A stretch of DNA of 64,000 bases from Methanolobus sp. WCC4 (GCF_038022665.1 NZ_CP150629.1:2772480-2836479); one strand, 5' to 3'; shown: positions 28,681 to 50,587, numbered from the stretch's first letter. Notes: generated from the sequence alone by a model not told the origin. Translations and numbers: made by a program.

Positions 28681-28755
28681 GCTCCGATAGTGTAGCACGG
28701 CCAATCATGCAGGACTCTCACTCCTGCGACTGGGGTTCGAATCCCCATCGGAGCA
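28681..28755 (+). tRNA. tRNA-Glu(CUC)
   Basis: Acceptor GCTCCGA/TCGGAGC, anticodon stem CAGGA/TCCTG with loop CTCTCAC giving anticodon CTC, T-arm TGGGG-TTCGAAT-CCCCA, discriminator A. CCA is not encoded here, but the displaced original 3' end at 50561-50590 reads gcaCCA. The 3' 27 nt form the attachment repeat of element 2. Confidence 0.93.
28729..28755. repeat. attL of element 2 (27 bp, tRNA-Glu 3' end)
   Basis: Identical over 27 nt to 50561-50587; spans the last anticodon-arm bases, T-arm, acceptor strand and discriminator base of tRNA-Glu. Confidence 0.92.
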
Positions 28756-28865
28756 TACGACCCTTTTCTTTTTACTCAATGCGAATATCATTTTGATACT
28801 ACACAAGTTACCCCAGTCACGTCAATATATAAAATTTTATATAATATCATGACGGATTTTTATGT

Positions 28866-29048
28866 ATGGGAATACTCAACGATCTTACTATCAAAATGGT
28901 GAACGACCCACTAAATGAATACTTCAGTGTACAAATCGCCGGAATAATAGCTACATTTTTACTGGCAATCTATATTCTTATTTTGTTGTATGAAAAAGCG
29001 GTCGAAGTACACGAAAAAGACAAAGCCAAGAAAGAAAACAATAATTAA
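28866..29048 (+). CDS. 60-residue single-TM protein, first gene of element 2
   Basis: TM at about residues 22-42 (IAGIIATFLLAIYILILLYE) followed by a strongly charged tail (EKAVEVHEKDKAKKENNN). A TATA-like stretch (near 28825-28845) precedes it. Not recognised. Confidence 0.55.
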   Translation: MGILNDLTIKMVNDPLNEYFSVQIAGIIATFLLAIYILILLYEKAVEVHEKDKAKKENNN

Positions 29049-29111
29049 AACATTTGTATATATAAGCAACATATACACACTTTTATACTATTGGATATAT
29101 TTATACAAGTC

Positions 29112-30152
29112 ATGAAGTGTCAGTATAGCAAAGAACAAAAAACTGTATTAGAAGAGTTCTGGCTAGACTGCGAATGTCGAGATTTCCACCAGCGTACTAG
29201 AGAAACTTACCGATCGAATGTCAGATACTTTCTTAATTTCACGAAGGTAGACATCAATTCTATTTTTGAAAATTTCTATATTGAAACAAATTTCGATGAA
29301 CTGAAGAAGTTCCTGCTGCATCTGAGAAGAAGAAAACTTTCCCAAAGTACAATCAATGGTTATTTTGCTGCATTATCGACCTTCTTTGGATTCCTTCATG
29401 AATATGATAAAACGAACAAGAACATTATCCCGGATTTTCGAAAAAGATACGTGAGGATGAAGAAGAAGTTCAATCACCAGAGTGAAAGACAGATAATTGA
29501 TGTCCCTACAATGGTACGTTTAATCGACGAACCATTGAGAACAAAAGCAGGACAAGTGATAAAAGATTATTGTCGAACGGTTCCAGAGAGGGACCGTGCT
29601 ATAATGACCCTGCTTGCAAAGACAGGACTTAGAAGAGAAGAACTTCGACTTTTAGAGATCAATGATATTGACATAGAAAATGGGATTATCTACATCAACC
29701 CTGAATTCTCAAAGAGAACCAACTGTATGGGATTCTTTGACCAAGAAGCCAAGATGATACTTAAGGAATATCTCCGGTGGAGAAGCAGCATTGTGAGAAG
29801 TGATAACAGAAAACTGTTTGTGACTCACACAGGTGCAAAGCTAAGAAAGGATGATATCTACTACATTGTTACCTATTACGCTAAAAGAATTGGAATCCAT
29901 GACCCACATGGACCTACGATGAAGAAATACACTCCAATATGCTTCAGACATTGGTTCACTACCTGGCTTAGAAGGAACGGGATGTCAAGGGAGTTCAGGA
30001 AATGGTTGCGTGGAGATGCACCTGAAGGAGCAGACGATTGGTATGACCATGTATTTGCTGAGAATGTCAAACCTGCATATCTTAAACTTATTCCAAAATT
30101 TGATGAGTTCAGGACTAAAGCATGTGAAACACCTGTTCAATGTTGCATATAA
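29112..30152 (+). CDS. Tyrosine integrase of element 2
   Basis: About 346 residues from the ATG at 29112; a TTG at 29091 would add seven residues but overlaps a TATA-like sequence. N-terminal SAM-like domain (about 10-115), catalytic domain with AKTGLRREELRLLE (Arg I) and the C-terminal WLRGDAPEGADDWYDHVF (nucleophilic Tyr). The HxxR box reads TPICFRHWFTTW: the expected His is Ile, while a His follows the Arg directly. The 301-residue integrase of provirus 1 keeps SHCLR. The enzyme may use a substitute residue or be weakened. Unusually the gene is separated from the tRNA by a small TM gene. Confidence 0.85.
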   Translation: MKCQYSKEQKTVLEEFWLDCECRDFHQRTRETYRSNVRYFLNFTKVDINSIFENFYIETNFDELKKFLLHLRRRKLSQSTINGYFAALSTFFGFLHEYDKTNKNIIPDFRKRYVRMKKKFNHQSERQIIDVPTMVRLIDEPLRTKAGQVIKDYCRTVPERDRAIMTLLAKTGLRREELRLLEINDIDIENGIIYINPEFSKRTNCMGFFDQEAKMILKEYLRWRSSIVRSDNRKLFVTHTGAKLRKDDIYYIVTYYAKRIGIHDPHGPTMKKYTPICFRHWFTTWLRRNGMSREFRKWLRGDAPEGADDWYDHVFAENVKPAYLKLIPKFDEFRTKACETPVQCCI

Positions 30153-30862
30153 ACAAAACGTCTATTGATATCGATTTTGTATTTATTGCTCATATGCGAA
30201 GAATTAAATATAGTTTTGTGAAAACGCTTATATAATAGTATTTTCATAAAAGAATTTACAACGTTGCTACTGATATCTTATAATAAAAATCTTATAAAAA
30301 TACCCCATACGAACAAATATTTTTAAAAAAACGATATCCAGAGATACTGATTAAAAAAATGTAAAATACGAACAATCTCGGCAAACGGACATGTCTATTT
30401 TCAATGTCCCCATAGCGAAAAGCGTTGTTTTTAGCGCAAAAAAATGTCCATATTCAATCTTATCTACAAGATAGGGACATTTTTTGAACGCTCGGTCGTT
30501 CCTCCTCGCTCCGCCTGGTCGTCACTTCCCTCGCGAGCCATGGATGAAGACCGGGAAGCTAGCCACCTGCTACGTGAGCCGATCGTTCAGTTGTCGCCAG
30601 TACCGGATAGCTGCGCTACTTTCCCCGCACACCGTTTTTTGCTTAATCGCTTCGCTGACAAAAAACGATATGCAGGATAAAGCATCCGGCACAAACGACT
30701 GCCCTCTCTAAGCTGTTGAGGGAGTGCCTCTATGGGTGGGTGGTTCCCTGGATCGCACCGGCCAAGTTAGCCAAGTTAGCCAACTGCGCACATTAATTTA
30801 TTTCAACAGTTATTTAATAAAAACGATATCAGTAGCCACACACACCTTTATATAGTAGTAGA
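30153..30862. promoter_or_regulatory. Gene-free region of element 2: iterons and hairpins, candidate replication origin
   Basis: About 700 nt without a credible gene. Three copies of the core aaaacgatat occur at about 30327-30337, 30661-30671 and 30820-30829, the first and third continuing as cgatatc. Hairpin A has 11-bp perfect arms (AAAAAATGTCC at 30439-30449, complement at 30475-30485) with an inner 5-bp stem. Hairpin B has arms CGTTTTTTG (30633-30641) and CAAAAAACG (30659-30667), the latter fused to an iteron. A 9-bp tandem ccaagttag repeats near 30762-30780. The block 30486-30740 is notably GC-rich compared with its flanks. This clustering suggests an origin; that function is inference. 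Confidence 0.5.
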
Positions 30863-30880
30863 TACTAGTATATACTAGTA
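30847..30880 (+). promoter_or_regulatory. TATA box with 18-bp palindromic operator
   Basis: A TATA box (tttatatag, 30848-30856) is followed at 30863-30880 by a perfect 18-bp palindrome TACTAGTATATACTAGTA, placed at the expected start-site region, 34 nt before the first gene of the 30914-33254 operon. A bound dimer would block initiation. The operon encodes an RHH protein (32943-33092), a natural candidate repressor (inference). Confidence 0.6.
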
Positions 30881-30913
30881 AGCAATTATAACTTACTAGG
30901 ATGTTGGCACATC

Positions 30914-31486
30914 ATGAAAGAAGATCTAATAACAATAGGAAGAAAGAACGAAGTTTATAGACCATGTTATATAAAAATAAATAACAAGGAATACCAAATC
31001 GAAAAAATACACATTTTCAATAAAGAAGGAATTCTTTATTCTACATATTCCGGCTGGTTTGAAAAGTACATCGGAATTTATCTATCTGAAGATATTACAG
31101 AATTCACACTTAATGATGTAGTACTTAAAAGAAAGATAAATTACAACCTAGAAACAAATTTCATTATTTCACTAGGTAAAGATGATTACAGTAATGAAAA
31201 ACTATGTGAATTGTATATTCACGATGCAACAGTACAAACAATAAAAAAACAGGTTGTCAAACTGGAAACCAACACAACAACCACATACCACGATATTAAA
31301 AAAATAACATTGAATGAACTTGAATTTAATGTAAGTGATAATATCACAATACAAGATACTGACTTTGGTATCAAGGTTAAACAGTTTGAAAAGATGTTCA
31401 AAGATGATAATATTGATATCAATAGATACCATATTCAAAAAATATTGGAATTGTACAATATAGAAAAAAAAGAAGGTGGTAACTAA
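30914..31486 (+). CDS. Unknown 190-residue soluble protein
   Basis: AT-rich, Lys/Ile/Asn-rich protein, no TM. Starts with beta-like segments (YRPCYIKINNKEYQIEKIHI) and ends in helical charged sequence (YNIEKKEGGN). Not recognised. First gene of the rightward operon; its TAA shares the A with the next ATG (TAATG). Confidence 0.65.
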   Translation: MKEDLITIGRKNEVYRPCYIKINNKEYQIEKIHIFNKEGILYSTYSGWFEKYIGIYLSEDITEFTLNDVVLKRKINYNLETNFIISLGKDDYSNEKLCELYIHDATVQTIKKQVVKLETNTTTTYHDIKKITLNELEFNVSDNITIQDTDFGIKVKQFEKMFKDDNIDINRYHIQKILELYNIEKKEGGN

Positions 31487-32010
31487 TGCCACTTTCAACC
31501 GCTATTGAGATAATCAACGACCTTAAAGAGCACTTCAAAGCAATTGATAACAATTTTGTTAAGATCATCGATGAGAAAGAGACCGAGATGATCAGAACAG
31601 GCATGCATAAGACACAGATAGCTTATGCACTGGCCGACAGCAGCCTGCAGATAGTCAACGCAATGACCACAGATACAACTCACAGACTGCTTCTTGAAAT
31701 GGGAATTCTTGATAATGTCGACATGACAGACGAAGAAACGGAAATATGGGGAGAAACTGTCACAAAGGCAGAAGAGACATTTAAAAAGTGGGAAATACTC
31801 CACTTAAAAAATGATGCTGAGAAGCTACTTTTCAAAACCTGTAAAGAATGGATGCATGATAATAATAAAAGATTGATCAAGGCCGGAAAAAGTAAGGATG
31901 AACTGGAATTGGTCAATAAGCTCTTTGACTCGATACACGAACATCCCAGGCACGTTAAGAGCCTTGTGAGCATTTGCATGAAAGTAGATATGTGCGAGGT
32001 GGAAAATTGA
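31486..32010 (+). CDS. Unknown 174-residue all-helical protein
   Basis: Starts in a TAATG overlap with GGTGG as ribosome site. Predominantly helical and acidic (ATTIEIINDLKEHFKAIDNN-like start, KTCKEWMHDNNKRLIKAGKS in the middle). No motif recognised. Translationally coupled to its neighbours. Confidence 0.62.
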   Translation: MPLSTAIEIINDLKEHFKAIDNNFVKIIDEKETEMIRTGMHKTQIAYALADSSLQIVNAMTTDTTHRLLLEMGILDNVDMTDEETEIWGETVTKAEETFKKWEILHLKNDAEKLLFKTCKEWMHDNNKRLIKAGKSKDELELVNKLFDSIHEHPRHVKSLVSICMKVDMCEVEN

Positions 32011-32228
32011 ACACCTCCAACAAGCAACTTTTTAAAATTAATCAACTGGTATGGTACAAAAACCAAGTATGGAAAATAGCGGACCATTGGAAACCTGAAA
32101 ACAGCGACATGCACCTTTATGCACTATGGTCTCAAGACGAAAAAACCGAGGTTGATGGATGGATACCACAGCCAGAATTAAAAAAATATCAAATACACGC
32201 ATTAGGATTTAGCAGAGCAGATTATTAA
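32007..32228 (+). CDS. 73-residue SH3-like small protein
   Basis: The TTG start (32007) overlaps the upstream TGA (TTGA) with gaggtgg before it; a longer reading from 31974 would overlap the upstream gene by 37 nt. Segment INQLVWYKNQVWKIADHWKP suggests a small beta-barrel (KOW/SH3-like). Role unknown. Confidence 0.55.
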   Translation: MNTSNKQLFKINQLVWYKNQVWKIADHWKPENSDMHLYALWSQDEKTEVDGWIPQPELKKYQIHALGFSRADY

Positions 32229-32244
32229 TTTTTCAGGTGATAAA

Positions 32245-32514
32245 ATGACAGACGGAAATGATCTTTTATTGAATGGAACAGAGAAAACCGACATAATAAA
32301 AGAATGGAATGATACTGTAAATCTGCATGTAAATGATGTATGGATTGGATTAGTAGACCTTGAAACAACAAGAGAGAAAGGCAACTATGCTTTTTTTAAA
32401 TATGTCAAGGAAATAAAGCAAACCAGCGGATCACTTGATATATTTATAGAGATACCCGAGTGGATAGCAGAGATGGACCAGGAAGAAAAGGACAAGGCAG
32501 GAGTGGGAAGATGA
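32245..32514 (+). CDS. Unknown 89-residue acidic protein
   Basis: Ribosome site ggtga upstream of the ATG. Acidic, with VNDVWIGLVDLETTREKGNY in the middle; no TM. Ends in an ATGA overlap with the next gene. Not recognised. Confidence 0.55.
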   Translation: MTDGNDLLLNGTEKTDIIKEWNDTVNLHVNDVWIGLVDLETTREKGNYAFFKYVKEIKQTSGSLDIFIEIPEWIAEMDQEEKDKAGVGR

Positions 32515-32915
32515 TAACATTAGGCCAAACTCCCAGAATAACCCTTTTAAAACTTGTCTTTGAAATGCCTTCGGAAGAAATCAAACGATATCTTTTAGAC
32601 TATCTCAGCCAGGAAGAACAAACCGAAATAAAAAGAATAGCAAGAGAAGCAAGAACCAATGAAAAAAACAAGCTATTCCAAGATATCAAAGGATTCCAGG
32701 ACATACCTGAAGAAAGACAAATTGAATTTGTAAAGGCAGCTGTCAGTTATGCAATTGCTCAAGGTGGTGCAAGTGCTGCCAATCAGAAAATAATCAGTGT
32801 GGAACAATGCCAGGAAGATATTAGAAAATACGGTCCAACTGCATTAAGAATGCATTTGATGCATGGATTTACACCAGGATATCAATTAATCATCAATGGT
32901 AGATACGGATACTGA
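32511..32915 (+). CDS. Unknown 134-residue helical protein
   Basis: Start chosen at the ATG overlapping the previous TGA (ATGA); a longer in-frame reading from 32460 lies inside the neighbour. Helical, charged: MPSEEIKRYLLDYLSQEEQT, later AVSYAIAQGGASAANQKI. Not recognised. Confidence 0.58.
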   Translation: MITLGQTPRITLLKLVFEMPSEEIKRYLLDYLSQEEQTEIKRIAREARTNEKNKLFQDIKGFQDIPEERQIEFVKAAVSYAIAQGGASAANQKIISVEQCQEDIRKYGPTALRMHLMHGFTPGYQLIINGRYGY

Positions 32916-32942
32916 TATATACCAGTGTGCAAAGGTGATACT

Positions 32943-33092
32943 ATGGCATCATGGAAAGGATCCGTATCTCTACCCAAAGAACTGAGAGAAAGAGTAGACA
33001 AGTACAACAAAGAAAACCCTGCAAGGAAACTTAATTTAAGTGCGATACTTCAGGCAGGAGTTGAAGAAATCTTAACAGAAGAAGGTTATTGA
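32943..33092 (+). CDS. 49-residue ribbon-helix-helix (CopG/Arc-type) regulator
   Basis: MASWKGSVSLPKELRERVDK begins with the N-terminal strand and first helix typical of RHH proteins; the second helix is LNLSAILQAGVEEILTEEG. Such dimers insert a beta ribbon into the DNA major groove, often at short palindromes. The 18-bp palindrome at 30863-30880 at the head of this operon is its probable target, giving negative autoregulation (inference). Ribosome site aaaggtg 6 nt upstream. Confidence 0.75.
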   Translation: MASWKGSVSLPKELRERVDKYNKENPARKLNLSAILQAGVEEILTEEGY

Positions 33093-33095
33093 AAT

Positions 33096-33254
33096 ATGGT
33101 TAATCGTCGTGTACAATGCCCGGATAGTTTTAAAAGCGGTACTTGCAGATTCATGAACACTGCATATATACAGAAAAGAAATGATGAAGGCAAGCTATCA
33201 CTTATCAAAATAGGATATTATTGTACTGAATGTGGTAAGTTTACACCATTGTAA
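33096..33254 (+). CDS. 52-residue zinc-ribbon-like protein
   Basis: Three nt after the RHH gene. Cys residues at CPDSFKSGTC and CTECG form a likely four-Cys zinc site; ends GKFTPL. Last gene of the rightward operon. Confidence 0.6.
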   Translation: MVNRRVQCPDSFKSGTCRFMNTAYIQKRNDEGKLSLIKIGYYCTECGKFTPL

Positions 33255-33556: not shown

Positions 33557-33997
33557 TCAGGCATCAATGTATGTCACGTTCTCTTTTGATGTCTCAACGA
33601 CCGTCTGAGCAGCCACGGAGACAGTATCTATCGTACCGTCCAGGTCAGATACTGCGTTGTACAACATCTGGACCATGAAGAGTCTGCCATCGCCCAGGGT
33701 GTAAGCATATGCAATGTCTATAGCTGAGAGCAGACCAAGTATAATGATGACAGCAGCCAACAAAGTTGTGATATTTGACCGGATAGCCATCTCATACAGG
33801 GTCTTCATCTTCTCGGATATCGCCTGACACAGGTAAACTAATACGACATAGGTGTAGATCTTCCAAATTGACAACTGAATAACTGTGAGGTCAACAGATG
33901 TTCCCAGAACATCAACTAAAAAGGGAATCAGGTCATGCCTGACGATGACAGCCAGGACGACCCATGAAGCAAAGAATATCTGCCGGAAAGTGACCAT
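33557..33997 (-). CDS. Four-TM small membrane protein
   Basis: About 146 residues from the ATG five bases after the upstream TGA; a TTG at 34021 would overlap the neighbour. Hydrophobic helices at roughly 5-25, 35-60 (IWKIYTYVVLVYLCQAI) and 75-100 (TTLLAAVIIILGLLSAIDIA), with a polar C terminus. Last gene of the leftward operon; probable virion or assembly membrane protein. Confidence 0.6.
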   Translation of the reverse strand: MVTFRQIFFASWVVLAVIVRHDLIPFLVDVLGTSVDLTVIQLSIWKIYTYVVLVYLCQAISEKMKTLYEMAIRSNITTLLAAVIIILGLLSAIDIAYAYTLGDGRLFMVQMLYNAVSDLDGTIDTVSVAAQTVVETSKENVTYIDA

Positions 33998-34001
33998 ATA
34001 A

Positions 34002-34349
34002 TCATCTCTTGCTGGAAGCAAGGTTCTTCATGGTATTGTATGCACCCTGCTTGCTATAGCCTCTATTCATGAGTTTTGCCATACCAAGTCTGAAGCCACG
34101 GAGAGAAATTCTTTTACTGGATTTCTTACCGGAAGAACCGAAAAATTCGTTAATGCTGCGATTCTTGCCATATCCCGGCTTTTTGTTAGGTGCCTTCTTT
34201 TCTTTCTTTTTCAAATATTGCAACCGCCTGTGATAAGTGGCCTTAGTTATGTTACCTTCTTTCCAGTCCTCTTTTAGCTGGTTCATCTGAACACGATAAT
34301 CGTCTTTTGAACCAGGAACAGGTCGATAGACCCTTTTACCTTTTACCAT
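34002..34349 (-). CDS. Very basic 115-residue protein, probable DNA-binding virion or packaging protein
   Basis: Lys/Arg throughout (RRLQYLKKKEKKAPNKKPG; KKSSKRISLRGFRLGMAK), no TM, ends NLASSKR. Start at the ATG (34349), three codons inside a possible TTG start. Basic small proteins in archaeal membrane viruses condense the genome (for example VP2-type proteins of spindle-shaped viruses), but no family is recognised. Confidence 0.58.
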   Translation of the reverse strand: MVKGKRVYRPVPGSKDDYRVQMNQLKEDWKEGNITKATYHRRLQYLKKKEKKAPNKKPGYGKNRSINEFFGSSGKKSSKRISLRGFRLGMAKLMNRGYSKQGAYNTMKNLASSKR

Positions 34350-34359
34350 CAATATCAAC

Positions 34360-34542
34360 TCACTTTATTTGCCGTGCTCCGGCAGTAACAATAATTCCAC
34401 CAACGATGAGGACCGCAGGTCCTACGTCTTCAGGCAAGAAGGTCACAAGTCCCGTTGAAACCATAATCGCACCAAATACCATGACAGTATCTCTCATGAC
34501 CTTCTTGCTGTTCTTTTCGATGTCAGTCCTATCAAGGTTCAT
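34360..34542 (-). CDS. 60-residue two-TM hairpin protein
   Basis: Charged N terminus (MNLDRTDIEKNSKKVMRDT), TM1 VMVFGAIMVSTGLVTFL, turn PEDVGP, TM2 AVLIVGGIIVTAG, basic end ARQIK. The hairpin of two short TMs is the architecture of spindle-shaped-virus coat proteins and of many small membrane-virion proteins; assignment is inference. ATGA overlap with the upstream gene. Confidence 0.58.
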   Translation of the reverse strand: MNLDRTDIEKNSKKVMRDTVMVFGAIMVSTGLVTFLPEDVGPAVLIVGGIIVTAGARQIK

Positions 34543-35123
34543 TCCTTTTTCCTCCGGGCTAGCACAATACCCACGAGCAGGACCAACACGAGAGATATAA
34601 CAGCCGAGCCGGTAAGAACGGCTGCGTTAAAGTCAATTTCATCGACAGGACTTTCGCTGTCATCAGGTTCATCGTAATCAGCAGGGTCGATAACCGTTAT
34701 GGACAATTCAAAGGTGTTCGGGCTGTCACGGATGGAGTCATAACGTCCATCTGCTTCTTTGACCTCCATTGTTATCTCGACTTCGTACTGTTCACCGACA
34801 TCACCATAGACAGTCAGAGGGAACGTTCCTTCGACAGTTTCATCGGCTGAGATGGAAAACGGTGTCAGGTATTTATCATCCCTGTCTCGCTGGGAACCGT
34901 CCCAGTCTATCGCGATCCTGGCACTGGTGTCTTCAGGTATGTAGGGTTCCCAGTAGTCATCATAGGTATATTTGTACGGTATCTGCACAGTTTCACCGGC
35001 AGGCAGTTCTACTGACTGATCACCGGTAAGCATGGTGAACTCTGTTGATGTGAGCAGCATGAACAGTGCCACAAGCAGAAAACCGACCATGACCGGATTG
35101 AATTTACTTGTCATCTTTCTCAC
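34539..35123 (-). CDS. Secreted, C-terminally anchored 194-residue surface protein
   Basis: Signal-like N terminus (VMVGFLLVALFMLLTSTEFT), beta-rich ectodomain (about 35-150: ETVQIPYKYTYDDYWEPYIP, then TFPLTVYGDVGEQYEVEITM), acidic linker YDEPDDSESPVDE, and C-terminal TM ending RRKKE. It overlaps the upstream gene by 20 nt. Architecture of a virion surface or spike protein; not recognised. Confidence 0.6.
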   Translation of the reverse strand: MRKMTSKFNPVMVGFLLVALFMLLTSTEFTMLTGDQSVELPAGETVQIPYKYTYDDYWEPYIPEDTSARIAIDWDGSQRDRDDKYLTPFSISADETVEGTFPLTVYGDVGEQYEVEITMEVKEADGRYDSIRDSPNTFELSITVIDPADYDEPDDSESPVDEIDFNAAVLTGSAVISLVLVLLVGIVLARRKKE

Positions 35124-36333
35124 CTTTCTTGTAGAATATCAACAGGACTATCAGTAAGAGTATCAGGAACAATGGCAGGCCGAAGGCAACAACAGCAACC
35201 AGACCAAGTGAAACTGCCAATTCAACCAGTAATTCTGCTATACTCTTACCATCCTCGTCATCACCATCAAGGATATCCTCAATGATATCTTCAGGATCAG
35301 GGACAGAAGGAATATCATTATCCGGGTCATCATAGCCACTGGAACCATCCTCTTTTGTTTCATCGGTGATACCATAGATAATGTAGTTGCAGGTATTGAT
35401 GTCAGAATCAAGTTCTACCTCGCCGTCATCATAGTCATAGCCGAACTGTGCCGGATAAGCATCATTGAAAAATGTTTCATAGTCATCAGCAAGTACCTTT
35501 ACAGAATATCGGCCAAATGGGAGGTTTTCAAAGGTCTTCGTACCGTCACTGCCGAGATAAACGGACTGTTGATACACCTGACCATCTTTGAGCAATTGAA
35601 CGGAACAGGGTAAAGCCTTCAGGTTGTCAAGGACCGTTACGGTCAGGGTTGCAGTGGTAGCACCTGGATCAGGTATAGTGACATGAACAAAAGCCCTGTC
35701 AGTATCATAGAACACCTGATCGGTTGGTATCGGAGAATCTATACCGAGTGATTCCTGAACAGTATAATCATACGTGTTACCAGCCTCGATACCCCACCCA
35801 CTTGGATAATATCTCAGTGTGGTGGTCCACGTTTCCCCATAGTCCCAGTTTCCAGAAACTGTCTGTTTCGTCTTGTAGGAATCAAGTAGACCGAAATCAG
35901 TATCATCGGATTCAGGCAGGCCATTGTACATCACAAGTCTTGCCTTTGTGACCTCCGGGTATTTGTTCCAAATACTATCAGGGAAATACAGGTCATTCTG
36001 CTGTTTGAAGGTTATTTCCTTATATTCAGATAGATAGTCAATGGTAAAACTGATGTCGTTGGATTGAGAGGAACCTTCTATACCATAGATGTTCATTGCA
36101 GAGCCGGTATCCTTGAAATAATACCATGGATAGTCAATGACGTGCATCCTGACACCCTGCTCATCCGTGACCATCTTGTGAATAGGACCAAAAAGGCCAT
36201 CACGATAAACTATGTCTACCTCGGTATCGCCTGAAGGAACATAAGACTGTACAGAAAGAGAAGGCAGCACAATGGATGCCACTAAAAGGACAAGTAGTAA
36301 TTTTACAATTCCCTGACGCTTTTTTGCATCCAT
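35104..36333 (-). CDS. Large secreted, C-terminally anchored spike-type protein
   Basis: 409 residues from the ATG at 36333, preceded by GGAG and one base from the upstream stop; a 43-residue upstream extension overlaps the neighbour and lacks support. Signal peptide (IVKLLLVLLVASIVLPSLSV), a ~230-residue beta domain, a carboxypeptidase-regulatory/PEGA-like module (about 245-310: KALPCSVQLLKDGQVYQQS and FGRYSVKVLADDYE), acidic linker, TM, basic tail KKGEKDDK. Together with the 194-residue neighbour it looks like a two-component virion surface complex (inference). Confidence 0.62.
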   Translation of the reverse strand: MDAKKRQGIVKLLLVLLVASIVLPSLSVQSYVPSGDTEVDIVYRDGLFGPIHKMVTDEQGVRMHVIDYPWYYFKDTGSAMNIYGIEGSSQSNDISFTIDYLSEYKEITFKQQNDLYFPDSIWNKYPEVTKARLVMYNGLPESDDTDFGLLDSYKTKQTVSGNWDYGETWTTTLRYYPSGWGIEAGNTYDYTVQESLGIDSPIPTDQVFYDTDRAFVHVTIPDPGATTATLTVTVLDNLKALPCSVQLLKDGQVYQQSVYLGSDGTKTFENLPFGRYSVKVLADDYETFFNDAYPAQFGYDYDDGEVELDSDINTCNYIIYGITDETKEDGSSGYDDPDNDIPSVPDPEDIIEDILDGDDEDGKSIAELLVELAVSLGLVAVVAFGLPLFLILLLIVLLIFYKKGEKDDK

Positions 36334-36334
36334 G

Positions 36335-42767: not shown

Positions 42768-43047
42768 TGGAATCACCACAATTGAAATATCCACGAATAT
42801 CATCCAATATACGAGAAACCCTAGCAAGTTCATCTATACGTCTACGGAGATCCCCGGCACGTTCGAAATCACCGTCTTCACATGCAACAATTAATAGAAA
42901 CAACAATCTTTTCCTTTCACGACCAACAGACTGCAGAACACTATTATAATCATCTAGAGTTACACTATCAAAGATAGAATCCGTTAGAGGAGAACCATCA
43001 TAAACTATAGCAGATTCAGAATCATAATCACATTCCATGATAACCAC
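42757..43047 (-). CDS. 96-residue protein with a UVR motif
   Basis: The C-terminal half has [20 protein letters not shown], the UvrB/UvrC interaction (UVR) helical hairpin. The N-terminal half is unrecognised. UVR motifs mediate protein-protein contact with UvrB, UvrC or Clp partners. Coupled to Hel308 by an 11-nt overlap, so a helicase adaptor or host-repair decoy is possible (inference). Host uvrB lies 18 kb away. Confidence 0.6.
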
Positions 43048-43395
43048 CTAAAAGATATTCTGTTCCATGACGAGACATATTGTTCGAAGATTGCTGAAGG
43101 TTGCCAGCAGACCTATCATCATTACGGAGTTCTTTGTGAATCGCCAGTATCCAGGATAGTTCCTACACATCCGATAAACGATGTAGAACAATACCATGAA
43201 CAGTGCTTTCAGGAATACCAATGCGATATACCCGAAATGGTCGAAGATGCAGCAAAGGACCGGATTGCCTTCATAGAACATACCTGTCCACAGGGCAGTG
43301 ATTGTGGTTGCAGTATCACCGTAAATGAATAATACAAATATGAACCATATCTCACTGAGGAAATCACTGTTTTTGATTTGTGCCAGCAGGTACAT
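43048..43395 (-). CDS. Three-TM membrane protein (DUF5658-like)
   Basis: About 115 residues; the start shown is the second Met (MYLLAQIKNS), since the first (43407) lies deeper in the upstream gene. TMs around residues 15-32, 45-75 and 90-108. The segment GDTATTITALWTGMFYEGNP resembles the DUF5658 opening (D-x-x-T-T, then E-x-N-P). Function unknown. Abuts the UVR gene. Confidence 0.55.
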   Translation of the reverse strand: MYLLAQIKNSDFLSEIWFIFVLFIYGDTATTITALWTGMFYEGNPVLCCIFDHFGYIALVFLKALFMVLFYIVYRMCRNYPGYWRFTKNSVMMIGLLATFSNLRTICLVMEQNIF

Positions 43396-43630
43396 CTTCA
43401 CCACCATTACCGAATATCATTTTTTTGAACTCTTCCACTGCTTCAAGACCTAGGTCCCTCTTCTCACGGTGTCGGGGAGGTATTTCACCAAGCTCTACGA
43501 GATGATTAGTGTAGAATTCCACAGACCTGATTATTGCATCAGTACCGGTTATGTTCTTAGATACAGCTATCCTGTCAATATCCTCGTGTGTGCCGTCTGG
43601 AAGACGGACATGTTTTCTATCATTCGCCAT
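43364..43630 (-). CDS. Small RHH-like DNA-binding protein
   Basis: 88 residues from the Met giving MANDRKHVRLPDGTHEDIDR; an upstream start would add ten. The pattern KHVRLPDGTHEDIDRIAVSK then GTDAIIRSVEFYTNHL matches ribbon-helix-helix (strand, helix, helix) followed by an acidic tail. A possible regulator of the leftward operon. Confidence 0.6.
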   Translation of the reverse strand: MANDRKHVRLPDGTHEDIDRIAVSKNITGTDAIIRSVEFYTNHLVELGEIPPRHREKRDLGLEAVEEFKKMIFGNGGEDVPAGTNQKQ

Positions 43631-44381
43631 CGTCAGACCACCCATCGAAATTTTCATCATATTTTGGATTATTAACTTGCTTAATTACCGGAGCAACTGA
43701 CTCAATGCGCTTCAAAGATTCAACGGCAACATCGATCTTATTGTGCAGGCTGTTAAAACCGGCATGAGAGTGTACAAGGTCAACCATACGATTGAATCCG
43801 TTCTGATACGAATTCGAGAGTACTGTGTAATACTCGACCTGGGCAGAATTTATGGCAGACTCCTTATCAAGACCATTTTTAAAGCAGGAACTGACCTGAT
43901 CACCGAGCAGCACGAGCTTAGTACCGGGTCTGAATATCATACCGTGTGGAATTGAACGTGGTTTGAACTCTGTACGAATCAAGCGGTCCTGACCGACCTC
44001 TACTACATGGTCCTTCGGACAGACAATTGCGATATTTCCTTCATAGACCAGACCATCATGATTACAGCCGTTCCCATAGTAGATATTGAAAGAAAGAACT
44101 CCGGCATGTGTGCTGTGGGTGATGCCTGACCAGGAGAAGGTACCTTTCTCGGTCAGTAGCTGGGGTGACATCCTTCTGCAATAGTCCTCTATATCCTCTT
44201 CATCCTCATGAAAATGAAGGAAGAGAAGCCAGAAGCATGAACCTATGGTAGCCCATGTGATGAGCTTGTCAGTGAGTATGAGAGGAAGGTCAGCACGGAA
44301 CAGACCTATCAGACCCCAGTAGTAGGCAAGGACTGCTAATGAGATGTTCTTTCCACTGAACTCAGGTAGTTGCAGGGACAT
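43620..44381 (-). CDS. Unknown 253-residue membrane protein
   Basis: Two N-terminal TM helices (ISLAVLAYYWGLIGLF and ITWATIGSCFWLLFLHF), then a ~195-residue domain with beta strands (YGNGCNHDGLVYEGNIAIVC) and helices (SNSYQNGFNRMVDLVHSHAG). Ends in an acidic tail. Not recognised. Overlaps both neighbours. Confidence 0.58.
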   Translation of the reverse strand: MSLQLPEFSGKNISLAVLAYYWGLIGLFRADLPLILTDKLITWATIGSCFWLLFLHFHEDEEDIEDYCRRMSPQLLTEKGTFSWSGITHSTHAGVLSFNIYYGNGCNHDGLVYEGNIAIVCPKDHVVEVGQDRLIRTEFKPRSIPHGMIFRPGTKLVLLGDQVSSCFKNGLDKESAINSAQVEYYTVLSNSYQNGFNRMVDLVHSHAGFNSLHNKIDVAVESLKRIESVAPVIKQVNNPKYDENFDGWSDDGE

Positions 44382-44823
44382 CCGGTATCACCACTCCGGT
44401 ATCAAGTATGAGTTCGTCAGGAACGTTAGCAAAGATGACACAGCCTTTTGGCATCTTGAAAGGTACTGTCCTGGGCAACGGTATTACATCACCGATAACC
44501 CATCCGTAAAGTCCGGGTCGGAAGTGTCTGACATCAAGACAGTGTTCCAACTGGTAGGACATGAATATCTCAAGGGTATCGAGCTTGATACAGTCCTTTA
44601 TCTCAATGAGGGATGTGATCTCACCGAAGACAAGGTCATCGACAGATACATCGAACCCGAGTTCGTACCTGAAATAATCATATTCGTCAGGATCAGGCTT
44701 ACTAAGACTATTATACAAACCAAGATAACCACGGAAACCTGTAGGAGTGCTCCGCACTTCAATGGTTTTGTGATTACCATCGATGAGATAAGGCCATGGA
44801 CGACGGACAGCGAGGATTTTCAT
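44362..44823 (-). CDS. ASCH-domain protein
   Basis: 153 residues opening MKILAVRRPWPYLIDGNHKT, a signature of ASCH domains (PUA-related RNA-binding beta-barrel; some members hydrolyse modified cytidines). GYLGLYNS follows at about residue 33. Phages often carry ASCH proteins beside nucleotide- or DNA-modification genes; a cytosine methylase is in this operon. Role unknown. Confidence 0.72.
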   Translation of the reverse strand: MKILAVRRPWPYLIDGNHKTIEVRSTPTGFRGYLGLYNSLSKPDPDEYDYFRYELGFDVSVDDLVFGEITSLIEIKDCIKLDTLEIFMSYQLEHCLDVRHFRPGLYGWVIGDVIPLPRTVPFKMPKGCVIFANVPDELILDTGVVIPDVPATT

Positions 44824-45002
44824 TCAGAATCCTCCACTTCACGACCAGGACAATTAAACAATGAATCATAAAATGAACATGCGAAAAATCCAATTGAAAA
44901 ACCAATCAGAAATATACCGACATAAGGATATCTAGCTGCATGAAAAACACCAAACATGAAAATACCCACATTAAAGAGCAAAACAATATCATAACGGTCC
45001 AT
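44820..45002 (-). CDS. 60-residue two-TM hairpin protein
   Basis: Start chosen at MDRYDIVLLFNVG, four bases after the upstream TGA, rather than the overlapping longer reading. TM1 IVLLFNVGIFMFGVFHAA, turn RYPY, TM2 VGIFLIGFSIGFFACSFY, acidic tail. Resembles the 34360-34542 protein in design; ATGA overlap with ASCH gene. Confidence 0.55.
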   Translation of the reverse strand: MDRYDIVLLFNVGIFMFGVFHAARYPYVGIFLIGFSIGFFACSFYDSLFNCPGREVEDSE

Positions 45003-45006
45003 AAAA

Positions 45007-45312
45007 TCAGACACGCTCCGGGTAAGCATTAGCATATTCACTTTTCAACGATTCTAAATCGGAAATTATCAAATCGACTTTGCCATTGAAGCGACCTTTA
45101 GGAAGGTCCTTAGAATAAGAATGGTGGATATACCCAAGGTCATCCATATCATTCAATATCATGGTTATCTTAATCAATATCTGACTGTCAGATTCATCAA
45201 TACCCCTCAACCGATATCTGATATTGAAATAAGTGTTCCTAACAGGTTCAACAAGAACAATGGCAAACAAAGCAGTAGCCACGACAAGGGCAACAAAACT
45301 AAGGTCTATCAT
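45007..45312 (-). CDS. 101-residue protein with N-terminal TM
   Basis: TM FVALVVATALFAIVLVEPV near the N terminus, followed by a ~75-residue charged cytoplasmic domain (SDSQILIKITMILNDMDDLG). The helix-strand pattern recalls a small winged helix tethered to the membrane. Not recognised. Confidence 0.55.
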   Translation of the reverse strand: MIDLSFVALVVATALFAIVLVEPVRNTYFNIRYRLRGIDESDSQILIKITMILNDMDDLGYIHHSYSKDLPKGRFNGKVDLIISDLESLKSEYANAYPERV

Positions 45313-45316
45313 GATA

Positions 45317-46561
45317 TCAATCCCTCAAATCATCGTTCATGACAGGGATATCCATGCTAAGGTCGGATGGTCCCATTGGTGGATATGGTGAAGGAGGATG
45401 TTGTGGATAGTCACCGTCATCGTCTTTATCCTTGACAATACCCCAATCATACCTCTTATGATAAGCAACACCAAGACCAACTACAACCCAAATACCCCAG
45501 AAACGGATGTACCAAGGTTCTTCATCTTCTTCATCTTCTTCTTCGTCATCATCTGCTTTTTTATACACGACTTCTTCTTCAGGCTGCTCATTATCATCTG
45601 ACTTCAGTTCAGACACTGCAACCTGAAGGTCTGTGACGGAATCTGTTAAAGTGTTGATATCTTCCTGTAATGCATCCACATCTGCGATACCTGGATCGGA
45701 GGAAACTTTCAGGCCGTTGAGTTCTGCGAACTCTACCAGATAGGCAGGCATTTCTTCAGGATCGGATGTTGTGTAGGTGGTGTCTTCTGATGCAAGAACC
45801 ACTTCAAAGGTCAGGTCCTTTGAATCGATGACATCACGAGTATCCCAGTCGATAAGGTCTATGGTGACACGGTTTGTACCAAGCTGGAAGTAGACACCGC
45901 TTATCCACTGTTCGACCTCAGATGAGCGACCGGCTTTAACAAGGACATCATCATCGAAGTCAAGGACATTGTTAGATATTTCCCATCTGAATTTATGGGA
46001 AACGGTGTCATCGTTCTCTATATCAAATACAACCTTGACATCCTTATCAAGTTCGACCGTTTTAATGTTCATGACATCTGACGTAGTTTCTATGTGTACA
46101 TCCTCCAGGCTGACATACCATGATATGTCTTCAGAATCGGATGTGTCATCATATTCAGGCTGAGTGAAGCCAAGATAAAGTATTTCAGAGGGATTGTTAG
46201 AATAGTCGAATGCACGAAACCCGGCAACGTGATAACCGGCTTCAAGGTCTGTTGCAGTGTAGTTAAAAGAAGTTGTTCCAGTGGCAGTTACCCATGACCT
46301 TTGGTCAATTTTGACCTCTACTCTGGATATCCCGGCTGATACATTGGCATCGTTGGAGGAATCCCACGCAGTACCGGAGAGCTTTGCAGTGTCATCATCA
46401 AAATTGTTGATGTTTCCGAGAATATTAGGTGACACTGTGTCGGATGCTGAAGCTACTGGAAGTGTAAGGGTCAGAAGCACAAAGAGACTTGTGTAGATGA
46501 CAGCCAGAAAAACGATGTTTCTAGCGAAGGTATCACGTGAATTATTTGTGAGGTCTATCAT
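45317..46561 (-). CDS. Large surface protein with Ig-like domains, coiled coil and C-terminal TM
   Basis: 414 residues. Signal/anchor (FLAVIYTSLFVLLTLTLPVASA), an Ig-like domain (about 45-140: SRVEVKIDQRSWVTATGTTS), a CARDB-like beta domain (about 170-275), a coiled coil (ALQEDINTLTDSVTDLQVAV), an acidic linker, a TM (WGIWVVVGLGVAYHK) and a Pro/Asp-rich tail. A membrane-anchored, coiled-coil stalk protein; spike-type virion candidate. Start in an ATGA overlap. Confidence 0.62.
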   Translation of the reverse strand: MIDLTNNSRDTFARNIVFLAVIYTSLFVLLTLTLPVASASDTVSPNILGNINNFDDDTAKLSGTAWDSSNDANVSAGISRVEVKIDQRSWVTATGTTSFNYTATDLEAGYHVAGFRAFDYSNNPSEILYLGFTQPEYDDTSDSEDISWYVSLEDVHIETTSDVMNIKTVELDKDVKVVFDIENDDTVSHKFRWEISNNVLDFDDDVLVKAGRSSEVEQWISGVYFQLGTNRVTIDLIDWDTRDVIDSKDLTFEVVLASEDTTYTTSDPEEMPAYLVEFAELNGLKVSSDPGIADVDALQEDINTLTDSVTDLQVAVSELKSDDNEQPEEEVVYKKADDDEEEDEEDEEPWYIRFWGIWVVVGLGVAYHKRYDWGIVKDKDDDGDYPQHPPSPYPPMGPSDLSMDIPVMNDDLRD

Positions 46562-46926
46562 GCTTCAACCTCACCGAGATTACATTCAGGAGCATAGTCG
46601 CTGCATCGGCAGGAGTTCTGCCAGAGACTGAGTGAGCCATCAGGTGATATCTTGCAATCATAGGCAGCACCACATTCACAGGTGACAGTTCCAGCCCGGA
46701 AGGGTACACTTAATTCCCCTTTGCAGATAACACATTCAAGAGTACGGATATCACCGAAGTAAGATATCTTCGATTCTGAAGATGGACGTTCTCGATGCCA
46801 GGGTGTTCTGCGAAGGGATACATTATCATCTTCACGAATGACGTTGTATTCAGCACCACAGTCACATTCTACTACTTCATCACCGGGGAAGACATCCACT
46901 GAGCGACGGCAATCATGACAGAGCAA
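46558..46926 (-). CDS. Double zinc-ribbon protein
   Basis: 122 residues with two similar modules, MLCHDCRRSVDVFPGDEVVE...CDCG and ECVICKGELSVPF...CECG, plus a Cys-rich C terminus (SCRCSDYAPEC). Internal duplication of a rubredoxin-like ribbon. Unknown function. Confidence 0.6.
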   Translation of the reverse strand: MLCHDCRRSVDVFPGDEVVECDCGAEYNVIREDDNVSLRRTPWHRERPSSESKISYFGDIRTLECVICKGELSVPFRAGTVTCECGAAYDCKISPDGSLSLWQNSCRCSDYAPECNLGEVEA

Positions 46927-46937
46927 TTTAATGCTGA

Positions 46938-47099
46938 TCAGGATACCAACCCCATAGCTGCAAGGGCTTTTTCATTTGTGCTCAATTGAGCGTTAATCTG
47001 TCGATACTCAATGAGATCATCAGCATCTTCAAGACGCTTGACAAGTCGGTCGTGCTCTTCTAAGAGGTTGACCTTGTATTGGGTCATGCCTGGAATCAT
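46938..47099 (-). CDS. 53-residue coiled-coil protein
   Basis: Helical, with heptad-like Leu spacing: KVNLLEEHDRLVKRLEDADD, ends AAMGLVS. Start four bases after the upstream stop, end 11 bases before the next gene; alternative Met four codons inside. Not recognised. Confidence 0.5.
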   Translation of the reverse strand: MIPGMTQYKVNLLEEHDRLVKRLEDADDLIEYRQINAQLSTNEKALAAMGLVS

Positions 47100-47102
47100 G
47101 AG

Positions 47103-47387
47103 TCAGCGCCCCTTAGAATATTTCTTGAAACAGGAGAGATAATCCTCTTCATCCCTGACATCATCACCGATACCACAATGGAACTTTCCATTTACAAAGA
47201 GATTCCATCCGATGTGCTGGAATTTCATACCACCGTGTTCGAACTCATAAGTAACAGGAATCTCATCTAAAGAAGGACACCCGACATCCATATCAAAGTC
47301 ATCAGGCATGTCGGCCTCACAGACATTAATTGAAAGAATATTTCTATTGAAACACTTCAAGCAAATATCATTAAAGTATTTACACAT
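47103..47387 (-). CDS. Unknown 94-residue protein with Cys pairs
   Basis: N terminus MCKYFNDICLKCFNRNILSI has C-x-x-C type Cys, followed by acidic segment EADMPDDFDMDVGCP and a basic end KKYSKGR. Perhaps zinc-binding. Not recognised. Confidence 0.5.
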   Translation of the reverse strand: MCKYFNDICLKCFNRNILSINVCEADMPDDFDMDVGCPSLDEIPVTYEFEHGGMKFQHIGWNLFVNGKFHCGIGDDVRDEEDYLSCFKKYSKGR

Positions 47388-47423
47388 AACACCACCATCC
47401 GAGAAAAAAGGAGGAAATTAGGC

Positions 47424-47975
47424 TTAGTAGCCTACGTCCTCATCGAGTTCACGCTGCTCTATCTCCTTCTGAAGAGCTACGTAATAGCTGACGGCTGTCC
47501 TGTTGGCTTCGAGCACTTTCGTGATGTAATTGTTCAGCTTGATAAGCTGAAGGATATTGATAGAAATGCTCTTCTTCCAGTCATTTGGGTCGGTGAAGGT
47601 AATGTTTGCAGGAAGTGCTACATGTGGTTTGTAGATATCCTTACCCTCTTTATCCTTCTCACCGGTCTTGAAGTTACCAGCTCTCATGTTCAGGCCGATA
47701 CCGAGCTTTGGTGGTGCATATGGGAAGAATGAACCATCGTTCTTCTCACTACCAAAAGAGTCGAGATTCCTGTCAATACTGCCGAGCATGACATCAAGTT
47801 TGTCTCGGGTAGCCTGTCCCATTAGGGCAAGGTTCTGAACTGCAGTGCTGTGAGCATCGAATGTTACTTCAGGTCCATCGACCTTTTCAGTCTCTTCGAG
47901 TTTCCTGTTGTTCACTGGCTGTTCTGTTGTCTTGTTTCCTGTCTTATCCACCGTTTCAGTTTCCTTATTTACCAT
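47424..47975 (-). CDS. Unknown 183-residue soluble protein
   Basis: Disordered, charged N terminus (~35 residues), then a compact domain (GIGLNMRAGNFKTGEKDKEG; NDWKKSISINILQLIKLNNY) and an acidic tail QRELDEDVGY. The acidic tail after a folded core is reminiscent of single-stranded-DNA-binding proteins, but there is no sequence proof. Directly follows the putative replication initiator. Confidence 0.55.
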   Translation of the reverse strand: MVNKETETVDKTGNKTTEQPVNNRKLEETEKVDGPEVTFDAHSTAVQNLALMGQATRDKLDVMLGSIDRNLDSFGSEKNDGSFFPYAPPKLGIGLNMRAGNFKTGEKDKEGKDIYKPHVALPANITFTDPNDWKKSISINILQLIKLNNYITKVLEANRTAVSYYVALQKEIEQRELDEDVGY

Positions 47976-48008
47976 TTTATTTACTCCTTAATTGTTGCAT
48001 AGATCACA

Positions 48009-49856
48009 CTATGATTGTAACAATTCGTCTGTGGTCGGTTTGCTGCTGCAAGCAAGCGACTGACGAGCTAAAAGATATGCAGGGACGGCATCATGTATGA
48101 GGCGATATCGTCCATGAGATATCTTTTTGAAAATAGGGTCCTCACGTACCCTGCTGCGATACTTACGTTCGCTGAGATTCTGGAAGAATGCCTTTGTGAG
48201 ATATTCCTGATCAACAAGGGAATCAAACAGGTCAACGTCCTTCAGCCATTGTGGAAGGTCATCAAATGAATCGAGTACACCCTGTAAGACCTCACGTTTG
48301 AGTTCATCATCGATGAGATGGTCATCATTGAGCCAGTTGTAGTATCCGTGGTCGAGTAAGCCGTTTATCTGGTCATATCTGCGATGCAGTTTGAAGAAGA
48401 GATATTTCTTGATGAGGTCAAGGTCCTCAAGGAAATAATCTGAAAGAGAAGGCATTGAAAGTGTGAACTGGATGTCACGGATACCGAGTATGTCTATTCT
48501 GTTCTTCAGTTCGCCTTTTAGAATTATTTCAGAACGCAGTATTTTCTTTGATTTGCGATATTCCTTATGAATATACCTTAATCTGGTAGCATCGACATCT
48601 GACCGGAACTCAGTTACCAAGAGAGGGGTATCTGCATCTATCTGGGGATTCAGGCCAACGGACCTTAACCGGTCATATTTGAGCCATAGGTGAGTACCTG
48701 GATCAACTGGCATAGGTTGATTCCAGCATACTTCACACTGGAGTATCCTGAACTGCTTCTTTACGTGAGCAACACCGGTGAAGCCGTTATGCTCCATCAT
48801 TTTAATGAAGACCTGATTAGCCTTCATGACAGCAGCATCGAATACTCTTTTTTCATATTCCTTGTAAAGATGAACGCATTCAGTAGGAATGAAGTTGCTT
48901 TCCTTCAGGAATTCCGCATCATAGAGGTCAGCATATTCCGGGTGGTCCTTTACTATTTCCAGCCAGACACTGCGTTGCATGTTGACATGCATCATAAGCG
49001 AGACTGGACGACCTTTAGGTGGACGATAGTTGTAACGGTATATCGCACCCTCTTCACGCCATACATAGGACCAGCCGGAGCCGTCACGGGTCTTCTTAGG
49101 TTTTGATGTGAGAGAACAAAGGGAAAGTACTGACCTGTTCTTAACGAAGTCGAACTGTTCGTCAAGATTGACAGGACAGTACATGTCTACCTCTTCAGGA
49201 GAGTAACCAGCATCGAGATAATCACGCCTTGTGTATTCGGCACGGTCGATATCGATACTGAAAGAGAATTTAGAGTCTTCGATTATCTTCTGTACATCCT
49301 TTTTGAAGGTGAAGTACTCTTCAGAGAATACCATTATTTCAACACGGTCGAGCATGAGGTCAGGGAAGTCGAATTCTTTCCAGACACTTTGAAATGCAAG
49401 GGCTGTCCTGGCTTCCTCATATTCAATATAATTCGTCCTGATAATATCCCTGCGTTTCATTGCAAGACGTTGACGATGATTGCGCCTGATGTTATCGATC
49501 TCGATGCCAAGGCCGTTATCTTCAAGGAACTTCTCAAGACGATAGTTCAGGGAACCTATATCGTATTGGTCAAAGTTCTGTTTTTCAAGGAATGGTACTA
49601 CATCTTCAAGCTCAAGGTTAAGATGTTGGGATATTTCCCTCTTGAGAGGGTCATAGAAGTCGTATTCGTTTGCCAAGGTTGCCAAGCGAAGTAGAGTAGT
49701 GTACTGTAATTCGGTGGTACTGAACTGAAGGATGTCGTTCTCTATGCGCTTCCAGAACTCTACTGGCAGAGAGTAAGCCATCCTGTCGTACACTGGTATC
49801 CTGTCAGCATCTTTGAAGAGCCTGCCAATGATAGTCTCTACTTCGCTGGATGACAT
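48009..49856 (-). CDS. Large soluble protein, possible rolling-circle-type replication initiator
   Basis: 615 residues, the largest unidentified product of element 2 after the helicase. The segment at about 422-450, TRLRYIHKEYRKSKKILRSE then IILKGEL, resembles the (y)LRiYdKg...lRxExxLkg core of Rep_trans and gpII-type initiators. Upstream, FRILQCEVCWNQP (about 369-381) resembles their strand with an acidic residue. No HUH motif is seen. The C-terminal third is helical (ILGIRDIQFTLSMPSLSDYF onward). It heads the leftward operon. If not Rep, it is an unclassified early protein. Confidence 0.45.
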   Translation of the reverse strand: MSSSEVETIIGRLFKDADRIPVYDRMAYSLPVEFWKRIENDILQFSTTELQYTTLLRLATLANEYDFYDPLKREISQHLNLELEDVVPFLEKQNFDQYDIGSLNYRLEKFLEDNGLGIEIDNIRRNHRQRLAMKRRDIIRTNYIEYEEARTALAFQSVWKEFDFPDLMLDRVEIMVFSEEYFTFKKDVQKIIEDSKFSFSIDIDRAEYTRRDYLDAGYSPEEVDMYCPVNLDEQFDFVKNRSVLSLCSLTSKPKKTRDGSGWSYVWREEGAIYRYNYRPPKGRPVSLMMHVNMQRSVWLEIVKDHPEYADLYDAEFLKESNFIPTECVHLYKEYEKRVFDAAVMKANQVFIKMMEHNGFTGVAHVKKQFRILQCEVCWNQPMPVDPGTHLWLKYDRLRSVGLNPQIDADTPLLVTEFRSDVDATRLRYIHKEYRKSKKILRSEIILKGELKNRIDILGIRDIQFTLSMPSLSDYFLEDLDLIKKYLFFKLHRRYDQINGLLDHGYYNWLNDDHLIDDELKREVLQGVLDSFDDLPQWLKDVDLFDSLVDQEYLTKAFFQNLSERKYRSRVREDPIFKKISHGRYRLIHDAVPAYLLARQSLACSSKPTTDELLQS

Positions 49857-49858
49857 GC

Positions 49859-50005
49859 TTAATTACCAGATGTAGAAGAGTAAGCACGTCCACAACTGAG
49901 GGGAGGTATCGGTTCATAGGAAGCGTTGAATTCCCGGAACTGACCCATAGAACATATCAGACAACCGTAGTTGTCATGATTGCAATCTGTACAGGTACTC
50001 AGCAT
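49859..50005 (-). CDS. 48-residue Cys-rich protein
   Basis: MLSTCTDCNHDNYGCLICSM has two CxxC pairs, a zinc-knuckle look; the tail is polar. Its ATG overlaps the stop of the 25-codon ORF. Its stop is three bases from the next start. Confidence 0.45.
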   Translation of the reverse strand: MLSTCTDCNHDNYGCLICSMGQFREFNASYEPIPPLSCGRAYSSTSGN

Positions 50006-50076
50006 CCTGCACCCCCGGATGGCATGATGAACTTTATAGACGGTCTACCGGTGTTACTCATGTAGAATATCTTCAT
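49999..50076 (-). CDS. Possible 25-residue peptide
   Basis: MKIFYMSNTGRPSIKFIMPS plus GGAGC. It sits in the chain of overlaps between the 72-residue and the 48-residue genes, which is its only support; it may simply be a translational-coupling leader. Confidence 0.3.
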   Translation of the reverse strand: MKIFYMSNTGRPSIKFIMPSGGAGC

Positions 50077-50291
50077 AGTTCAATGCCTCCGAGGTCACAG
50101 GGAAAGGAGGGTTCGTCTGTACAGTCGAGAATGTCAGCAGCCATCTCCCTGAATGAGAGAGGTTCGACATCATCAAAATTAAAGCGTTCAAAGATATTGC
50201 CAATCGTGATATTGGCATTTGCACTGCTGTCTGGTAAATCAGCAGAGCTACTGCTATGGTTTGTTATAGGGTTCATGTTACGATTATCCAA
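50073..50291 (-). CDS. 72-residue acidic protein, first gene of the leftward operon
   Basis: Ser/Asn-rich N terminus (MDNRNMNPITNHSSSSADLP), then IFERFNFDDVEPLSFREMAA and an acidic end. No TM or known motif. Nearest gene to the promoter at 50292-50460. Confidence 0.5.
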   Translation of the reverse strand: MDNRNMNPITNHSSSSADLPDSSANANITIGNIFERFNFDDVEPLSFREMAADILDCTDEPSFPCDLGGIEL

Positions 50292-50560
50292 ATTGTTTTA
50301 TCTGAACTTCTGGTAAAATTCAGACAAATTCAAAAAGACATAGCAAGTATATAAACTTTGCTAAATTATGTTACTAAACTGCGCTGACACGGTAACTGTT
50401 ATATAAGTATATCGCATTTTAACAATTGCGCCAAAATGACAGTGTACGTGCTGGTAACACGTCATAACTGAACTGTGTAAATGATTTTCAAATCGGTTAT
50501 CCAAAACACAGTTCGGAAATCACTATCAGTGGTCGTATGTGAGGATGGGACCCCATTAAA
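50292..50560 (-). promoter_or_regulatory. Promoter region of the leftward operon
   Basis: No gene is seen. On the minus strand a TATA-like stretch (agtttatatact, plus 50346-50357) lies about 60 nt before the start at 50291. A second AT-rich block (gttatataagtatatc, about 50397-50413) may be an additional promoter. The region ends at the attachment repeat. Confidence 0.45.
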
Positions 50561-50587
50561 ACTGGGGTTCGAATCCCCATCGGAGCA
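50561..50587. repeat. attR of element 2, displaced tRNA-Glu 3' end
   Basis: 27 nt identical to 28729-28755. The next three bases are CCA, so this copy reads ...cggagcaCCA: the original gene end probably encoded CCA. It is not a second tRNA, since no D-arm or anticodon arm precedes it. Confidence 0.9.

Follow-up and report, generated by a model that had tools for sequence, protein, structure and literature searches.

A mobile genetic element of about 21.9 kb was found integrated in the tRNA-Glu(CTC) gene of Methanolobus sp. WCC4, and a diverged sister element was found in another species of the genus. The best reading of these data is that the two elements form an apparently undescribed family, known from its genes alone, which would work like the pleolipoviruses, pR1SE (compared here by description) or pT26-2, with no demonstrated membership in any of these. 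To our knowledge, few viruses or transferable elements have been described for this methanogen group.

Integration site and layout of the element

The analyzed stretch of DNA (the window, 64 kb) belongs to a complete genome of 2.85 Mb in which MCR alpha was found. The 27-bp direct repeat ACTGGGGTTCGAATCCCCATCGGAGCA is present exactly at 28729 and 50561, and the window holds these 2 copies only. No third full-length exact copy was found genome-wide, where the other tRNA-like matches reached 78-79%. This attachment-site footprint demonstrates site-specific insertion at tRNA-Glu(CTC), and the integrase is intact. About 34 genes are arranged in two convergent operons, a short one on the plus strand (28866-33254) and a long one on the minus strand (33557-49856). 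The G+C content of the element (0.425) is about equal to that of the flanks (0.417 and 0.425). The tRNA, the repeat and the gene calls confirm the size, the perfect att repeats and the two convergent operons given in the preliminary description. The stretch between the putative replication gene and attR is a candidate origin or promoter region. All features are listed in Table 1.

Table 1 Features of the tRNA-Glu element and of the second provirus, in positions of the window.
Feature	Position	Strand	Evidence or relation to sister element
tRNA-Glu(CTC), integration target	28680-28756	+	ARAGORN; Rfam RF00005
attL, 27-bp repeat within tRNA-Glu 3' end	28729-28755	+	perfect match to attR
60-aa single-TM protein adjoining integrase	28866-29048	+	
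Tyrosine recombinase/integrase, intact, beside attL	29091-30152	+	PF00589 E=1.9e-15; 58% to sister integrase
Two cargo genes, 190 and 174 aa	30914-32010	+	absent from sister
Three-gene block: 89 aa, 151 aa, 55-aa RHH-like	32245-33092	+	sister identity 79-87%
146-aa three-TM protein	33557-33997	-	relative in another genus E=6e-15
Very basic protein, pI 10.7	34002-34358	-	sister pI 10.9
194 aa: N-terminal TM, beta ectodomain, C-terminal TM	34539-35123	-	sister 44%
409 aa: signal peptide, beta-rich ectodomain, C-terminal TM	35104-36333	-	sister 45-51%
70-aa TM protein	36335-36547	-	sister 66%
CPBP/Rce1-like membrane protease	36544-37188	-	PF02517 E=1.7e-9 and 3e-11; sister 59%
446 aa, secreted, propeller-like head	37348-38688	-	
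255-aa signal-anchored beta-rich protein	38755-39522	-	sister 46-49%
DNA methyltransferase-like gene, split over two frames, cargo	39622-40259	-	phrog_757 E=1.1e-17
Hel308-type DEAD helicase, cargo	40614-42833	-	PF00270, PF21280; phrog_6819 E=9e-119; absent from sister
DUF5658 membrane protein	43048-43407	-	also in other integrated elements of genus
98-aa RHH-like protein	43364-43660	-	sister 40%
253 aa: N-terminal hydrophobic hairpin, conserved cytosolic domain (GNGCNxDGLVYxGNxAIVCP)	43620-44381	-	sister 40%
ASCH-like protein, cargo	44362-44823	-	phrog_3193 E=2.5e-15; also in other elements of genus
414 aa: signal peptide, Ig-like domain, coiled coil, C-terminal membrane segment	45317-46561	-	sister 40%
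Zinc-ribbon protein and small proteins	46558-47387	-	partly conserved in sister
183-aa soluble protein after putative Rep	47424-47975	-	sister 24%
615-aa putative replication initiator	48009-49856	-	sister 51%; 30-33% in two solo copies near another integrase
Region without conserved gene, ~700 bp, putative Rep to attR	49860-50560		
attR, perfect copy of 27-bp repeat	50561-50587	+	
Inovirus-like provirus: Rep-like protein	10237-11553		
Inovirus-like provirus: secreted adhesin	14272-15618		
Inovirus-like provirus: small TM proteins	15615-16117		
Inovirus-like provirus: Zot/pI-type ATPase	16756-17475		
Inovirus-like provirus: integrase	20866-21771		

In this genus the tRNA-Glu(CTC) gene, next to which a gene for a PAN-like ATPase lies, is a hot spot of integration, and related integrases with quite different elements were found there in G058, G061 and G043. 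A clean empty site was not found by joined-flank search because the right flank is the remnant of another element. A frame-disrupted integrase-like gene lies just outside attR (50650-51134); a longer uninterrupted version of it forms the far hot-spot border in G058, and DNA matches were found in G043 and G060.

The window also carries a second provirus, inovirus-like, at tRNA-Gly(TCC) (about 9900-21985), which was identified by inspection of its sequences. G043:C10 (L068/L069) has a close relative of it. Further tRNA-anchored elements of the genus (L076/L077, L067, L074) encode a TGSGKT ATPase of 311-317 aa with companions of 120-150 aa, and L076 encodes a 115-aa coat-like protein. The tRNA-Gly-anchored element or elements of G046 (L070/L071, 12165-29430) encode a 416-aa ATPase, a secreted propeller-like protein of 860 aa and a Rep-like protein of 455 aa, and have ASCH, DUF5658 and the 89-aa gene of the three-gene block in common with the tRNA-Glu element.

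The sister element and the conserved core

When 112 genomes of the family were searched with the 615-aa protein, three relatives were found, all in the same genus. The sister element is about 20.3 kb long and lies in G060 (L009+L010), a different species of the genus, at the same tRNA-Glu gene; its right border is a shorter copy of the tRNA end. Tblastn and profile searches showed that the integrase and the three-gene block are kept, at the amino acid identities given in Table 1. A further 14 genes of the leftward operon are collinear at about 24-66% identity. The homologues follow in the order 33557, 34002 (weak), 34539, 35104, 36335, 36544, 37348, 38755, 43364, 43620, 45317, 46558, 47103, 47424 and 48009, and the core pairs agree in topology and charge between the two elements. 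The helicase, the methyltransferase and ASCH are missing from the sister, which carries instead a DnaQ-like exonuclease, an ArdC-type antirestriction protein and an IS200 transposase. The cargo differs while the membrane and secreted block stays, which indicates that the block is the selected function and the functional core. The block is present in 2 of the 27 genomes of the genus and is therefore accessory.

The search for the same gene order in other methanogens, proposed in the preliminary description, yielded this sister and, outside the genus, one relative of the three-TM protein. The latter (L038, 10170-10565) is located at a contig end beside purQ, with a partial second copy. This locus is possibly a third, more distant element.

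Five secreted or anchored proteins, starting at 34539, 35104, 37348, 38755 and 45317, were judged beta-rich from their sequence, in line with the earlier count of at least four; the very basic protein, the RHH protein (here two RHH-type proteins) and the integrase (PF00589) named with them were likewise recovered. The three-TM protein is the candidate main membrane protein of a particle, and the basic protein is a candidate for binding or condensing DNA. The 409-aa protein, in which Pfam detects a weak CarboxypepD_reg/PEGA-like stretch, is a candidate spike, and the 414-aa protein is a candidate second spike. The distant matches of the 414-aa protein were not taken as relatives, as all of them are confined to a single Ig-like domain within large proteins. 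In the 446-aa protein the head is poorly conserved between the two elements and the C-terminal 62 aa are 55% identical. A changing head on a constant anchor is what a receptor-binding protein would show, and this protein is a candidate for host recognition. The AF2 model of the 255-aa protein (2-row alignment) had a pLDDT of 30 and gave no usable fold. The RHH-type proteins at 32925-33092 and 43364-43660 were assigned by sequence only, without a Pfam match, and the three-gene block at the end of the rightward operon probably encodes regulators.

The 615-aa protein is probably a replication protein, as suggested by our motif reading and by its gene neighborhood. Its stretch K-x-Y-x-K....LR-x-E recalls, as we read it, rolling-circle initiators of the Phage_CRI/Rep_trans type. 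G062 and G063 also carry the gene, close to a different integrase and with no membrane block, and G039 has a fragment of it; such occurrence apart from the block is more in keeping with replication initiation than with a structural role. The AF2 model (4-row alignment) was poor, with a pLDDT of 55, and Foldseek against the PDB gave nothing below E=0.08. Tblastn against phages and plasmids gave no match. In three genomes, the solo copies and the fragment (L011 6373-8265, L013 4849-6666, L129) have CRISPR arrays at a distance of about 10-15 kb.

Searches for hallmark genes and relatives

Pfam and PHROGs recognized the integrase, the Hel308-type helicase, the methyltransferase fragment, the phrog_3193 protein, DUF5658 and the CPBP protease; no other element protein reached a convincing score. 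The earlier statement that most genes are unrecognized has to be amended for the helicase, the methyltransferase, the ASCH-like protein and the CPBP protease. The name ASCH is our own reading of the phrog_3193 match. The methyltransferase-like gene has its N-terminus in one frame and the remainder in a second overlapping frame; it is broken, frame-shifted or affected by a sequencing error. A reading as a defense island was rejected: the PADLOC matches were to the generic helicase only, plus a marginal match to Cmr5.

No capsid, terminase, portal or packaging ATPase was found in the element by Pfam or PHROGs, as previously described, and no relaxase, VirD4 or VirB4 by Pfam. For nearly all element proteins, both databases were negative for Caudoviricetes terminase, portal and HK97 capsid. 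A Zot-type ATPase was found neither in the element nor in the sister by Pfam/PHROGs and a Walker A search, and that search gave no plausible packaging ATPase in either; the pattern was strict, misses the helicase and matched solely an acidic linker of the 409-aa protein. Without the protease and the integrase, the core had no match in Pfam, PHROGs, PDB, phage records or IMG/VR. No relative was found in viral contigs scanned with six queries or in genome contigs scanned with two, and the concatenated core gave no tblastn match to phages. PDB sequence profiles were negative as well. Among 223 CRISPR spacers from seven genomes of the genus, none scored clearly above the reversed-spacer control (best 75% vs 71%).

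Known families and the possible mode of spread

An integrative family of methanogen elements that spreads in membrane-bound particles is the reading we lean towards, with slightly better than even confidence. A released membrane particle was ranked first because the conserved genes encode surface and membrane proteins, without recognizable genes for lysis, conjugation or a packaging motor, and because one conserved surface protein has a variable head. The points against it are the lack of a recognizable virion or vesicle homologue, of a packaging ATPase and of a spacer match. The more specific proposal, held only tentatively, is that methanogens have a new family of membrane-bound archaeal viruses, or of virus-like vesicle elements, which would package DNA without an ATPase encoded by the element and whose structural proteins would have no kinship with those of any known archaeal virus.

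The pR1SE-like elements of haloarchaea (apHPVs) are similar in being integrating and non-conjugative, with membrane and secreted clusters around variable cargo, a core peptidase, and a protein with variable head and conserved tail. Their ORF6 homologues have a variable, often propeller-type N-terminus and a conserved C-terminus, and their core (ORF6-9 and ORF17-25) includes the ORF7 S8 protease and the ORF25 packaging-type ATPase (PMC10818511). In contrast, the element here has a CPBP membrane protease and, by Pfam, no S8 protease or packaging ATPase; pR1SE was compared by description only. The inovirus-like proviruses of Methanolobus (Roux 2019, PMC6813254) share Methanosarcinaceae hosts, tRNA insertion, related integrases and secreted adhesins, but have a Zot/pI ATPase and a single-TM coat protein (30-90 aa), neither of which is present in the element.

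An integrative plasmid of the pT26-2 type, whose membrane block would be a device for DNA secretion or transfer at cell contact with no released particle, is unlikely. The pT26-2 plasmids of Thermococcales and Methanococcales measure 17-38 kb, insert in tRNA genes and have a membrane-protein-rich block with a variable Rep/cargo region, and one of their core proteins has a carboxypeptidase-regulatory domain (PMC6972569). The element agrees in size (~22 kb), tRNA insertion and general plan, and that domain is weakly seen in the 409-aa protein. However, all pT26-2 members have an AAA+ ATPase (t26-14p) among their seven core genes (PMC6972569), which is absent here and in the sister, and the best hhalign probability of the core pairs against all pMEFER01 proteins was 5%. 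The preliminary description had named a conjugation gene set or homology to a known plasmid family as evidence against its view; no such gene set was detected, and the comparison with pMEFER01 gave no sign of homology to the pT26-2 family. An archaeal virus of a known type, spindle-shaped or other, with structural proteins diverged past recognition, is improbable. Such viruses do have small TM and anchored beta-rich proteins, and an integrase with a tRNA target is typical of them. The Pleolipoviridae in particular resemble the element in a small multi-TM protein, in spikes with signal peptide and C-terminal TM, and in the integrase of some members, but have a VP8-type AAA ATPase that Pfam/PHROGs and the Walker A search did not find here. 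The Fuselloviridae and Halspiviridae have a hydrophobic two-TM major capsid protein; small TM proteins are present in the element, and no profile match to SSV1 or His1 was obtained. By hhalign, the core pairs reached at best 7.4% against the proteins of SSV1, His1, His2, HRPV-1 and HHPV4, and no PHROGs or phage match was found.

The same method, applied as a control between pleolipovirus genera, linked spikes, ATPases and ORF7 at 88-99.8% (spikes 99.5-99.8%) and ORF6 at 46%, and missed VP3 (0.9%). Homology to the pleolipovirus spike and ATPase is therefore excluded at that depth, and a VP3-like role of the three-TM protein stays compatible with the null result. No homologue of VP3, VP4, ORF6, ORF7 or VP8 was found in the core by hhalign, to which VP3 is undetectable even in the control. 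The least probable reading is a defective element or fitness island, in which mobility was lost and the block is kept for host benefit as surface coat or for adhesion. It would agree with the frame-split cargo gene, with the missing spacer matches and with the integrated pT26-2 copies that keep their core after losing replication genes (PMC6972569). Against it stand the perfect att repeats, the integrase and putative Rep intact here and in the sister, and the presence of the membrane block in just 2 of 27 genomes.

The syntenic, diverged sister and the lack of homology to any searched virus or plasmid support an undescribed family, as the preliminary description had claimed. Its further step, that the family is viral, is not demonstrated, with no recognizable capsid protein, packaging ATPase or spacer match and with uninformative structure predictions. 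The same anatomy fits pR1SE-type plasmid-vesicle elements and pT26-2 plasmids.

If the family does spread in membrane-bound particles, the integrase would excise a 21.8-kb circle, the 615-aa protein would initiate its replication, and the RHH-type proteins would govern the switch. Handling or condensation of the DNA may fall to the basic protein and to the 183-aa protein, and the host membrane would be decorated by the three-TM protein together with the beta-rich proteins, four or five in number, that are secreted or anchored. As no element-coded packaging motor was seen, DNA entry would occur by condensation or membrane association. Circle and membrane would then bud without lysis as a pleomorphic particle, either a virion or a plasmid vesicle, and the variable-headed secreted protein of 446 aa would bind the next cell.

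The half-diverged second copy turns an orphan gene list into a defined core that is open to expression, imaging and deletion. The element poses the question of how membrane particles could transfer DNA when no packaging motor is at hand, at the border between virus and plasmid.
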